Of a DNA stretch of 64,000 bases, positions 13,956-18,994 are shown piece by piece. This stretch comes from Cyanobacteriota bacterium SRBZ.bins.94.201705 (lineage in GTDB: Bacteria; Cyanobacteriota; Cyanobacteriia; Cyanobacteriales; Cyanobacteriaceae), in contig JAUQQP010000044.1 in assembly GCA_030549855.1 (NCBI GenBank), forward strand, positions 246,196 to 310,195, read 5' to 3'. Below the pieces are notes generated by a model. It was not told where the DNA came from and searched no databases. It saw only the letters and a program-made list of their open reading frames with translations. The stretch's first letter is position 1. Each line of letters starts with the position of its first letter. The translations under genes and the position numbers were made by a program.

Positions 13956-14753
13956 CTATTTGGCTAAACCTGTCAATCCGGCAGTAGTATACTCGTATGT
14001 CCTCCTACTGTCGGGGTTTAGGAATATTTTTTCTACTGTATTATGTTCAACTACATAACCAGTCTTACCGCCTCTAGCATTCTCTTCTACGTCCATGTAG
14101 ACTACCTCATCGCAAATGCGGGCAACCTGTCTAAGATCGTGACTGGTCATGATGATGGTATAGTCTTCTTTGAGTTTTAACAGCAGTTTTTCAATTTCTA
14201 GGGTGGAAACCGGATCTAATGCTGAACAGGGCTCATCTAATAGTAACACCTCTGGTTGGATGGCGATGGCCCTAGCGATACACAAACGCTGCTGTTGTCC
14301 ACCAGAGAGGGTTAGGGCATTGTGGTTAAGACGGTATTTTACCTCATCCCACAGGCCCACCTTTGTCAGGGCTAATTCTACCATTTCCCTGATTTGTGCC
14401 CGGGGATAGCCGTTTGCCCTCAGGGGGAAGGCGATGTTGTCGTAGATGGAGGTAGGGAAGGGGGCTGGCCTTTGAAACACCATTCCTATTCTACGACGTA
14501 ATTCTACCAGGTCCATGCCCCGCCGATATATGTCCTCCCCTTTGAATAAGACTTTTCCTTGTACCCTCATCCCTTCAACCAGGTCGTTTAGGCGATTTAA
14601 ACAACGCAGCAGCGTGGTTTTGCCACAGCCAGAACGTCCTATAATACCTGTAATTTGATGGGCTTTAAAGTCTATGAATACCCCGGCTATTAGTACTTGT
14701 TTGTAGCAGGTTACGGAGACATTTTCCAGTCTGAGGATTACATTTTCTTCCAT
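13956..14753 (-). CDS. pstB: Phosphate ABC transporter ATP-binding protein
   Basis: A 265-residue ATPase that powers high-affinity phosphate import through PstC/PstA. It shows Walker A GRSGCGKTT, the ABC signature LSGGQQQR and Walker B LLLDEP followed by CSALDP, all in the order and wording typical of PstB. ATG 14753 has AGGGAGG six bases upstream; the GTG two codons earlier would sit on that site. It is the last gene of the operon, starting 12 bp after the permease fusion, and is convergent with thrS. Confidence 0.96.
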   Translation of the reverse strand: MEENVILRLENVSVTCYKQVLIAGVFIDFKAHQITGIIGRSGCGKTTLLRCLNRLNDLVEGMRVQGKVLFKGEDIYRRGMDLVELRRRIGMVFQRPAPFPTSIYDNIAFPLRANGYPRAQIREMVELALTKVGLWDEVKYRLNHNALTLSGGQQQRLCIARAIAIQPEVLLLDEPCSALDPVSTLEIEKLLLKLKEDYTIIMTSHDLRQVARICDEVVYMDVEENARGGKTGYVVEHNTVEKIFLNPDSRRTYEYTTAGLTGLAK

Positions 14754-14765
14754 AGACACCTCCCT

Positions 14766-16649
14766 CTAGGTACTAGTTTTTGGTTTTAACAATTCCCGTG
14801 CCACCACGGAGAGAATATTGATAACCAGCAAAATGATAACCAAAACTATAATGGCTGCTGCTGCCTGGGATTGAACTTCTGCTTTTGGACTTTGTAACCA
14901 GTAGAAAATCTGTACCGGCAAAGTCGAGTAGCTGCTTTGTAATCCCTGCAGCGATAAGGGAGGAAGAAAACGAACTATGACTTTGGCGCCTACGCCTATC
15001 AGGGCAGCCGTTTCTGCTAAAGCCCTCCCTTGGGCAATTAAAATCCCTGTCAGGATGCCGGAGAGGGCATTAGGCAGTAGAATTCTTATTATCACCTGTT
15101 CCCTTGTCATCCCTAGGGCGTAACCACTTTGTCGCAAAACTGGATCTACACTTCTCAGGGCATTCCTGCTGGTTACTATTACTGTGGGTAGGGAAATCAA
15201 GGTTAACACCAAGGCGCCACTGAGGATACTGTTGCCTCCTGTGATTGGTTTGCCCAAATGTACAAACAATTCTAGTCCCAACAAACCGTAGAGGATGGTG
15301 GGTATTGCGGCTAGATTGGCAATACAAATATCTAAAAGGCGGGCGAAGGTATCTCGTTTTTGGTATTCTTCCAGATAAATGGCACTACCCACCCCCAGTG
15401 GTGTTACCATTAGCAGGGTGAGGACAAATAGCCATAAACTGCCTACTAGGGGTGATAGAATCCCTGACTCTTTGGGGTTACGGGAGGGAAGACTAGTGAG
15501 GAATTTCCAATTTAGGTGGCCAATTCCATCTCTTAGTAAGGCTATGAACAATATTGTTATAAAAATTACCCCCATGCTGGCACAAATAAAACCTGCAATT
15601 CCCAGGATTTTTTCCAGGATTCTTCTGCTTTTTAGTTCATTTCTCTCGTAGTTTTTGTGGGCGACCGTCTCTTTTTTCTCCAGAGTTACCCGGTATTTTT
15701 CCTCAGGCGTGCCCTTTTTTCTCTCGGTTTTGTAAAGTATTCTTCCAATTTGGCTCACATCATAATTCTGTAGCCAATAACTTATACTGTTGAGGATTAA
15801 AGTAACTAGAAATAGAACAAATCCTAGGGTAAAAATCGTTTTGAACAGGAGGGAGTCGTATTCCACTGTGCCCAAACTAATTCTAAGAATAAAACTAGTC
15901 ATAGTTTCAATGGGCACAAAGGGATTAAAAGTCAAATTGGGTTTTTGTCCAGCTGCCACTGCTACAATCATAGTTTCCCCAATAGCCAGGGAAGCTGCCA
16001 GGGAGACTGCGGCTATTATTCGGGGGAGAATAGAGGGAAGGAGTATGCGGAAAATCGCCTCTGGTTTAGTTAGGGCAAGGGCGTAGCCGGAATTGCGTAA
16101 ATGTTGGGGGAGGGATTTGAGGGCGTCTTCTGTCAGGGAGGCGATTACTGGTGTTATAAATATACCGATACAGATACCGGCACTGAGGGCATTAAAGCTG
16201 GAGATAAAGGGGATAAAAGTGCTTTTTACAAAGGGGGTTAACACTAGGAGGGCAAAATAACCATAAACCACTGCCGGTATGCCTCCCAGAGACTCCAGGG
16301 TTATTTTCAGAAAACGACGGAGAAAAGGGGGTGCATATTCTGACAGATAAACTGCCGCCAGTATCCCCACTGGGATTGCAAATAATAGGGCAATCGTGGT
16401 GGTTAAAAATGTGCCTGACAACAGTACAATTACGCCGAATTTGGCATTGGCATAGTTGGGAGTCCACTCCCTGCTGGTAAAGAATTCTACGGGGGATACT
16501 TCCTGGAAAAATTCATAAGTTTGAATGAGGAAAACCAGAAAAATCCCCACCACAATTACAATGGGCACTATTCCCACAATTGTCAGGACTATCTCCAACC
16601 AGGATTTAGAGGCCATCTTTGTTTTTGCGGTTAAAATTCTACTACTCAT
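14766..16649 (-). CDS. Fused PstC-PstA phosphate permease
   Basis: A 627-residue inner-membrane protein that unites both permease subunits of the phosphate ABC transporter. Residues about 1-315 match PstC (ASLAIGETMIVAVAAGQ and the EAA-loop segment NSGYALALTKPEAIFRILLP). A charged, basic linker spans about 316-345, and residues about 350-627 match PstA (LRQSGYALGMTREQVIIRILLP, GRALAETAALIGVGA). Each half has its own set of roughly six membrane helices. The frame is open throughout and both EAA loops are intact, so this looks like a working fusion. Its ATG lies in ATGAGTAG, overlapping the stop of the upstream CBS gene by 8 bp, with GGAGGAGG before it, so translation is probably coupled. Confidence 0.92.
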   Translation of the reverse strand: MSSRILTAKTKMASKSWLEIVLTIVGIVPIVIVVGIFLVFLIQTYEFFQEVSPVEFFTSREWTPNYANAKFGVIVLLSGTFLTTTIALLFAIPVGILAAVYLSEYAPPFLRRFLKITLESLGGIPAVVYGYFALLVLTPFVKSTFIPFISSFNALSAGICIGIFITPVIASLTEDALKSLPQHLRNSGYALALTKPEAIFRILLPSILPRIIAAVSLAASLAIGETMIVAVAAGQKPNLTFNPFVPIETMTSFILRISLGTVEYDSLLFKTIFTLGFVLFLVTLILNSISYWLQNYDVSQIGRILYKTERKKGTPEEKYRVTLEKKETVAHKNYERNELKSRRILEKILGIAGFICASMGVIFITILFIALLRDGIGHLNWKFLTSLPSRNPKESGILSPLVGSLWLFVLTLLMVTPLGVGSAIYLEEYQKRDTFARLLDICIANLAAIPTILYGLLGLELFVHLGKPITGGNSILSGALVLTLISLPTVIVTSRNALRSVDPVLRQSGYALGMTREQVIIRILLPNALSGILTGILIAQGRALAETAALIGVGAKVIVRFLPPLSLQGLQSSYSTLPVQIFYWLQSPKAEVQSQAAAAIIVLVIILLVINILSVVARELLKPKTST

Positions 16650-17787
16650 TTTCCTCCTCCCTTCCCTCTATTAAAGCCGTCAGTTTAGCCAACGCCGACT
16701 GGACGCCTTGGAAATTTCGTGCCAGGCTTCTCACTGTTTTTTGATTTTCCTCGGCGGCACTAGATAGATTATTTATTTCCGCCTTTAATTCTTCTGCTAC
16801 ACCATTAATGTTACTACTTGCTTGGTTTATTTGCACACTTAATTTTTCTATTTCCTGGGTGACCATATCGAAGGGCAGTTTTCGTTTTTCTTCTGTGGAT
16901 ATACCCGACACCATTTTGCCTACTTTCTGGGATAGGAAATCTACTCTTTTGCTTATTTGCGATATTATTTCCGTAGACTGGTTTATCAGCCTGAACTTAT
17001 ACTTAAATCCGGAAGAGGCCAGGGATATTTGCTGGTTTATGGCCGCTATTTTGTCTACAGTTTTCGCCAGGGAATCTAGGGTTTTTCCCCCTTGCTGTGA
17101 CAGCAGCAAGCCTACTTCTGCAAAGCGCTCATTTAATCTAGATATTTCCTGGTTTCTAATCTCTAGGTCTTTTTGTTTTTCTTCTAGTTGCTTGGCCTGT
17201 TTTTCTAGCAGTTTGTTGGCTCTTCTGAGCTGCTCTTTTTGATGTTCTAATTCCTTGGCATATTCGCTGACTACTTCTTTCTCTTTTTCCAGTCTTTCCG
17301 CATAGCTTTTCAACACTTCTCCCTGTTTTAAGAGTAGCTGGTTTATTTCTGAGAAGGCATTTGCTTCTGCCAGGATTAAAACACTCAATTCCAGCATGCC
17401 GATATATTCATCTTCCTCTACAACCACAACTGGTTCATAGATGTATTTTGGGTCTCGTTTTAATGCCAGCTTGACTGCTTCGTTAATTTCTGTATCGGCG
17501 GGGATAGTTAGTGGCTTATAGTCAAGGGTTTTTACCAGGACTTTTATGGGCCGTTTGCTGTAAATGTCCCGGGCATACTCCCTGCTCATTTTTTCAAAGA
17601 AAACTCGCCGAGAAATGGTGGCCACCACCTCGTTTTTTTTGGTTACAAATACTCCCGACAGTTTAGGATTATCTAAAAGGGTTTCTTCCACCATTTCGGT
17701 AATTGTGCTGATGTCTACTCTATAGTTGTCTAAGGGGAGGTCTTTAATTTTCCCCACATTTACCTGACTATCCACTTCCCTGGCCAT
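16642..17787 (-). CDS. CBS-pair/coiled-coil protein of the pst operon
   Basis: A 381-residue soluble protein that I do not recognise by name. Residues about 10-140 look like a pair of CBS domains (SGVFVTKKNEVVATISRR, then YEPVVVVEEDEYIGMLEL), a module that usually binds adenine nucleotides. Residues about 150-225 form a strongly charged coiled coil rich in Glu, Lys and Gln. Residues about 225-375 are a long helical region with heptads resembling the signalling part of methyl-accepting proteins, but without a clear receptor tip. No membrane helix is seen. It is the first gene of the pst operon and overlaps pstCA by 8 bp. A role in sensing energy or phosphate state and modulating the transporter is inference from context only. 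Confidence 0.8.
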   Translation of the reverse strand: MAREVDSQVNVGKIKDLPLDNYRVDISTITEMVEETLLDNPKLSGVFVTKKNEVVATISRRVFFEKMSREYARDIYSKRPIKVLVKTLDYKPLTIPADTEINEAVKLALKRDPKYIYEPVVVVEEDEYIGMLELSVLILAEANAFSEINQLLLKQGEVLKSYAERLEKEKEVVSEYAKELEHQKEQLRRANKLLEKQAKQLEEKQKDLEIRNQEISRLNERFAEVGLLLSQQGGKTLDSLAKTVDKIAAINQQISLASSGFKYKFRLINQSTEIISQISKRVDFLSQKVGKMVSGISTEEKRKLPFDMVTQEIEKLSVQINQASSNINGVAEELKAEINNLSSAAEENQKTVRSLARNFQGVQSALAKLTALIEGREEENE

Positions 17788-17856: not shown

Positions 17857-17911
17857 TTTAATCTTAACTTAAACTTTTCTTAAAGAAAAAATAACTAAAC
17901 AAGGGTATATT
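17857..17911 (+). promoter_or_regulatory. Pho box and -10 element of pstS
   Basis: Three 8-bp repeats, TTTAATCT, CTTAAACT and CTTAAAGA (17857-17864, 17868-17875, 17879-17886), are each separated by 3 bp, giving the 11-bp period of a cyanobacterial Pho box recognised by the PhoB-type regulator SphR. A -10 box, TATATT, lies at 17906-17911, with 19 bp between the last repeat and it, so the box takes the place of a -35. This predicts induction of pstS under phosphate limitation. Confidence 0.75.
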
Positions 17912-17968: not shown

Positions 17969-18994
17969 ATGAAAAGAAAAATTGGCAGAGGCATAGCAAC
18001 AATATTAGCTTTACTGGGATTGACGGCTTGTGGAGGTGGTACTGGACAGCAAGGGACAGGAGAGGGTGGCTCTTTGAGTGGTAGCATAACTATAGACGGA
18101 TCTAGTACAGTTGCCCCCATTACCGAGGCTATGGCGGAGGAGTTTCAAAAACAACAAAAGCAGGTGCAGATTGCTATTGGGGTATCAGGTACTGGTGGTG
18201 GCTTTAAGAAGTTTTGTGGGGGGGAAACGGATATTTCCAATGCCTCTCGTCCCATCAAACCAGAGGAGATGCAGAAGTGTCAGGAAAACGGTATAGAATT
18301 TGTGGAACTGCCCGTAGCCTATGATGCTATTTCCGTAGTGGTAAATCCCCAAAATGACTGGGTTAGCTGCCTTAAGGTGGAGGAGTTGAAGAAGATATGG
18401 GAGCCAGAGGCCCAGGGGAAAATAACTAAGTGGAAACAAGTAAATGACAAATTCCCTGATGAGCCTTTGAATTTGTACGGCCCAGGCACAGACTCTGGTA
18501 CCTTTGACTACTTTACAGAGGCCATTGTGGGCGAGGCGGATAAGAGTAGAGGGGATTATACTGCCAGTGAGGATGACAATGTGATAGTCCAGGGAGTAGC
18601 CAATGACAAGGGGGCATTGGGGTACTTTGGGCTGGCTTACCTGGAGGAGAATATAGACAAGGTGAAACCGGTGGCTATAGATGACGGTGATCCTAAAAAT
18701 GGGGAGGGATGTATTGAACCAAATGTTACAACTGTAGAAGACGGGACCTATCAGCCCCTATCTCGTCCACTGTTTATCTACGTGAAAAAGGAGTCTTTGA
18801 ATCGTCCTGAGGTGAAGGCTTTCGTGGAGTTTTATCTACAAAAAGAAAATAAACCCCTCGTCAACAAGGTGGGATATGTTCACCTACCCGATACGGTCTA
18901 TGATAAGGTACAGGCCCGTTTCAAGGAACAAAAGACTGGTACTGTGTTTACCAAGGGGTCAGCTAAGGGGGTGAAACTGGAGTCTGTGTTATAA
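17969..18994 (+). CDS. pstS: Phosphate-binding lipoprotein PstS
   Basis: A 341-residue periplasmic phosphate-binding protein. The signal peptide ends in the lipobox LTAC, so Cys21 should be lipid-anchored. The mature part starts with the family landmark [15 protein letters not shown], followed by [10 protein letters not shown] and the [12 protein letters not shown] segment, whose Ser, Thr and Asp residues bind phosphate. AGGAGG precedes the ATG. The gene diverges from the CBS-pstCA-pstB operon and has a Pho box upstream. Confidence 0.95.

Follow-up and report, generated by a model that had tools for sequence, protein, structure and literature searches.

The window, by which we mean the whole 64,000-nucleotide stretch of cyanobacterial DNA analysed here (from a genome of 2.87 Mb whose gene content, like the named relatives of the protein discussed below, is cyanobacterial), raises the question of what a protein combining a CBS domain pair with a long helical hairpin does at the head of an operon for the phosphate importer Pst. 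How the activity of Pst and the phosphate signalling based on it are controlled is still poorly resolved, and the only widespread Pst regulator known to us is PhoU (PF01895), a Pst-associated negative regulator that is encoded with pst in many bacteria and has a proposed role next to PstB.

Gene layout at the pst locus

The gene in question is an ORF of 381 amino acids with an ATG start at 16642-17787 on the minus strand, which was confirmed in the window. Annotation of the pst genes of the window with NCBIfam models places next to it, on the same strand, a gene for a fused PstC-PstA permease (pstCA; 14766-16649, 627 aa; TIGR02138 and TIGR00974, both above cut-off), followed downstream after 6 bp by the gene for the PstB ATPase (13956-14759, minus strand), whose best match is TIGR00972 at 321.7 bits (cut-off 343.2). 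The gene for PstS (17969-18994, plus strand; TIGR02136) is divergently oriented. The start of pstCA lies inside the 3' end of the CBS/hairpin gene, with the stop codon of the latter and the start codon of the former contained in an 8-bp overlap, ATGAGTAG (16642-16649, minus strand). An earlier, sequence-only reading of this DNA had described the gene as the first of the pst operon and as overlapping pstCA, and both points hold. Given that the encoded protein is conserved, showing 83% identity within its genus and having full-length orthologues in over 15 genomes besides, a chance ORF is excluded.

An uninterrupted fused PstC-PstA ORF is found in about 32 of the 389 genomes of the order. The window's genome additionally carries, on another contig, a second pst locus of the unfused type (L066; G000:C47:50779-54334), which codes for one pstC-like and two further pstA-like permease ORFs along with pstB.

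Architecture of the CBS/hairpin protein

An AlphaFold2 (AF2) model, computed from an alignment of 19 members, has a mean pLDDT of 80 (about 90 within the CBS pair) and a pTM of 0.43. It displays a CBS pair leading into one unbroken helix, after which the chain turns, at low confidence, and runs back as a second, antiparallel helix. The two helices span residues 134-295 and 304-374 in the numbering of the ORF (the model numbering is one less). The CBS pair spans ORF residues ~14-136 (17380-17748, minus strand) and is recognized by AF2, Foldseek and VIA; the Pfam CBS model detects only its second half, with a score below cut-off (21.5 versus 24 bits). Foldseek matched the AF2 model to CBS pairs in the PDB with E ~1e-5 and a probability of 1.00, and VIA aligned the CBS part over 129 residues (Z 12.7, rmsd 3.3). 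The solved CBS pairs matched in these comparisons are those of OpuCA, which is the best Foldseek match, CBSX1 and AcuB. A signalling helix or coiled coil (residues ~137-221; 17125-17379, minus strand) constitutes the next segment of the continuous AF2 helix. The CBS pair and the long coiled coil that had been proposed from the sequence are thus both recovered by the model.

The N-terminal CBS module (residues ~13-180) is also found, at roughly 28-35% identity, in cyanobacterial histidine kinases and GGDEF proteins. As it precedes histidine kinases and a diguanylate cyclase (GGDEF) elsewhere in the order, we regard it as an input module. At one locus (L041:5180-9237) three consecutive genes possess the same N-terminal CBS module, with outputs consisting of a HATPase domain only, a HisKA-HATPase combination and a GGDEF domain. 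Many, though not all, CBS proteins contain the adenosine-nucleotide motif GhxS/TxxDh. In the present family the ribose-binding Asp of GhxS/TxxD is missing from CBS1 in 12 of 13 aligned members and from CBS2 in all of them. A nucleotide sensor, as the sequence-only reading had envisaged, thus finds no support in the motif, the canonical Asp being lost in nearly all close members; other ligands may still be bound.

The C-terminal half is, as judged from profile comparisons, a short and degenerate MCP signalling hairpin (residues ~222-374, with the tip at ~295-303; 16666-17124, minus strand). In an hmmsearch of the family profile against PDB sequences, MCP signalling domains ranked first (E 8e-8), and the C-terminal half by itself also recovered MCP signalling domains (E 2.7e-8). 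The Pfam MCPsignal model matched 11 of the 19 members (best E 4.8e-7), the window protein itself scoring below cut-off. VIA-align of the hairpin returned generic antiparallel coiled coils only (SMC, PI3K p85) and was uninformative. A designed coiled coil reached E 2.6e-6 in the same PDB search with the C-terminal half. Part of the MCP signal is therefore coiled-coil background, and the E-values carry less weight than the in-register match of the tip, which is seen in an hhalign comparison with a genuine cyanobacterial MCP (91%, E 1.1e-6). Together, the MCPsignal matches, the PDB search and hhalign substantiate the receptor-like helices noted earlier.

This homology to the MCP signalling hairpin could be taken to indicate a cytoplasmic chemoreceptor, which would serve phosphate or energy taxis via CheA/CheW. 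We consider such a function highly improbable: alignments of the family show a tip without sequence conservation and with a loop of varying length, and the Asn, Glu and Arg positions, which in MCPs make the trimer and CheA/CheW contacts, are lost. A canonical chemoreceptor was rejected on the loss of this conserved CheA/CheW-contacting tip.

The protein is also distinct from PhoU. In agreement with the earlier statement that it has no PhoU-like fold, hhalign against the PhoU of the window's genome gave a probability of 0.2%, and the C-terminal part of the AF2 model consists of two long helices, as against the two three-helix bundles of PhoU; PhoU is also absent from the listed Pfam matches of the window protein. 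The accompanying statement that no phoU is nearby is correct within the window, but the genome encodes PhoU on a third contig, distinct from those of the window and of the unfused pst locus. There, at L042:3755-7533, the PhoU gene has a response regulator/histidine kinase pair of the SphR/SphS type nearby, and a creatininase-like ORF on the other strand lies between this pair and PhoU. Furthermore, PhoU is present in all 23 of the 23 genomes checked, irrespective of whether they have the CBS/hairpin gene. Hence, the protein does not replace PhoU, as had been hinted, and a role as PhoU substitute was rejected on this coexistence and on the lack of sequence similarity.

Linkage to pst genes and predicted Pho boxes

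In f1, the window's GTDB family, the gene lies directly before the fused pstCA, with pstS divergent, in 8 of 8 genomes having it; it occurs in all 8 genomes of the family with fused PstCA and in none of the 5 complete genomes without (Fisher p 8e-4). Elsewhere it is divergently placed between pstCA and pstS (f18) or divergent from a pstCA that is broken off by the contig end (f11). In f13, G140 has the gene divergent from pstCA, and in G093 it is separated from pstB by about 2 kb. Adjacency to pst is therefore seen in four families in at least three arrangements, and these differences in layout between families argue that the association amounts to more than the inheritance of a single arrangement. 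Across the order, fused-type Pst is present in 16 of the 19 genomes that carry a close orthologue versus 48 of 370 others (counts uncorrected for relatedness). However, a close orthologue accompanies the uninterrupted fused pstCA in only 13 of the 32 genomes of the order that have it; as the remaining 19 lack one, Pst can do without the protein, which is an accessory rather than a core subunit.

In f7, f8, f26, f39 and f40, and in two genomes of f13, the gene is unlinked to pst. Distant homologues are found away from pst, some of them (f2, f5) in the vicinity of large signalling ORFs with PAS or receiver domains. Clustering of the ORFs neighboring the non-adjacent and distant homologues revealed no single common partner. 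A search of genome contigs with the single protein gave no match, and one with the alignment recovered six named loci, of which the five at full length all come from metagenome-assembled genomes; a plasmid search gave no matches to the protein. A contig labelled as part of a Chloroflexaceae metagenome-assembled genome (L106 in G024, JAAUTE010000151.1) bears a cyanobacterial orthologue beside pstCA, which suggests mislabelling or mixed binning.

The SphR site comprises at least three tandem 8-bp repeats with 3-bp spacers and the consensus CTTAACCT (PMC1906773). We scored candidate sites with a simple weighting of our own (maximum 36), which had been set from the window and the known consensus prior to any look at the orthologues. 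The top-scoring triple repeat of the 64-kb window, TTTAATCT taa CTTAAACT ttt CTTAAAGA (17857-17886, plus strand), is a predicted Pho box in the divergent intergenic region between the CBS/hairpin gene and pstS. Given that this box could serve pstS alone, orthologues away from pst were examined. All eight of these score at least 31 of 36 upstream, and seven predicted boxes are well placed, some 75-145 bp upstream of the start codon, with the two f13 genomes scoring best on the opposite strand. The remaining one, in G071, lies at -309 on the other strand and is probably a chance match. Among the controls, 5 of 74 genes at the same loci score likewise, as do none of the 16 distant homologues; the difference between orthologues and controls gives a Fisher p of 4e-8, or 1.6e-6 without G071. 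The predicted box of the G161 orthologue has four tandem repeats, as do those of the f39 members, which belong to another order, and f40 shows a weaker pair of sites that is conserved among three genomes (p 0.02-0.05 singly). These predicted boxes at non-adjacent orthologues are the strongest test of the phosphate link, being independent of gene neighborhood.

A 19-member clade (support 100/99) contains every pst-adjacent gene and, of the eight non-adjacent genes with a predicted Pho box, seven; the box-less distant homologues fall outside it as a separate clade. Adding other orders to the tree leaves the box-less genes mainly in a single group. Pho control may thus go back to the ancestor and have been lost mainly once, which we offer as a suggestion only.

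Together, linkage and predicted Pho boxes link the gene genetically, in several lineages of cyanobacteria, to phosphate starvation. The coupling to Pst put forward earlier thus withstands a survey of homologue neighborhoods, given that close orthologues either adjoin pst in four families or keep predicted Pho boxes. That the gene is a chance neighbor with no role in phosphate metabolism would agree with the unlinked distant homologues lacking a Pho box, but it is extremely improbable in light of the several linked arrangements and the predicted boxes at unlinked sites, and we rejected it on these grounds.

Membership of a common regulon does not in itself imply that gene products interact. The gene might be an output of the Pho regulon with its own target outside Pst/Pho signalling, for example as a regulator of the phosphorus-starvation stress response, its adjacency to pst merely reflecting a common promoter region. 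The retention of only a predicted Pho box in f7, f8, part of f13, f26 and f39 and the absence of the gene from over half of the fused-pstCA genomes of the order are consistent with this. Set against these are the co-directional, overlapping layout in the window's genus, the association with pst in differing orientations and the exact co-occurrence with fused PstCA inside f1, and we regard this explanation as unlikely.

Possible role and comparison with known systems

We propose, with about even confidence, that the CBS/hairpin protein is an accessory regulator, itself part of the Pho regulon, with Pst, or what Pst reports, as its direct target. It would be a soluble, probably dimeric protein whose synthesis SphR (Pho) controls along with that of a high-affinity Pst importer, and in the window's genus the overlapping reading frame would hold its synthesis in step with that of the permease. 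The CBS pair could read a signal inside the cell that reflects its phosphate or energy status, and the state of the pair would be transmitted along the continuous helix to the repurposed chemoreceptor-type hairpin. The hairpin tip, having lost the CheA/CheW contact residues, might then touch PstB or PstCA within the Pst complex, adjusting uptake; alternatively, it might alter the report of Pst to PhoU/SphS. A more specific version, which we advance tentatively and think somewhat doubtful, is that of a dedicated, PhoU-independent allosteric subunit of Pst, with a CBS sensor on a protein of its own acting on an orphaned chemoreceptor hairpin, and with this hairpin either gating transport or reporting the state of the transporter.

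The target could instead be the SphS-SphR/PhoU signalling arm rather than the transporter, with the protein acting as a starvation-induced accessory that modulates the kinase. Consistent with this, the CBS module otherwise occurs on histidine kinases, some distant homologues neighbor PAS/receiver-domain signalling ORFs, and the non-adjacent orthologues keep a predicted Pho box without pst adjacency. However, linkage, where present, is to pst genes, and in the window's genome SphS-SphR and PhoU are encoded on another contig, so that we assign this possibility a low probability.

If the regulation of Pst or of its report is indeed the function of the protein, cyanobacteria would have a second control route beside PhoU, built from a CBS sensor and a chemoreceptor-type hairpin, and an MCP signalling hairpin would be employed away from CheA. 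Those orthologues that occur in complete genomes offer candidate strains for genetics. Our search of the open PMC literature found nothing on this protein and nothing relevant on CBS domains in connection with Pst, Pho or cyanobacteria.

Parallels to parts of this arrangement exist in several known systems. Like PhoU, the protein has a soluble, all-helical effector part and is coded with pst; it differs in having a CBS sensor and one long hairpin, and in coexisting with a true PhoU. With the MCP signalling domain (PF00015) it has in common an antiparallel C-terminal helical hairpin with the tip in register, but it is short (~70 residues per arm), has lost the CheA/CheW contacts, has a variable tip loop and is devoid of a membrane or HAMP part, and the Pfam score of the window protein is below cut-off. 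In OpuA/OpuC-type importers a CBS pair is likewise tied to an ABC importer; there, however, it resides on the ATPase, whereas here it belongs to a separate soluble protein unfused to PstB, and the match to OpuCA is one of fold only, at 13% identity. Finally, the cyanobacterial CBS-module histidine kinases and GGDEF proteins have the N-terminal CBS module in common with it, but couple this module to a HisKA/HATPase or GGDEF output, in place of which the present protein has a non-enzymatic hairpin.
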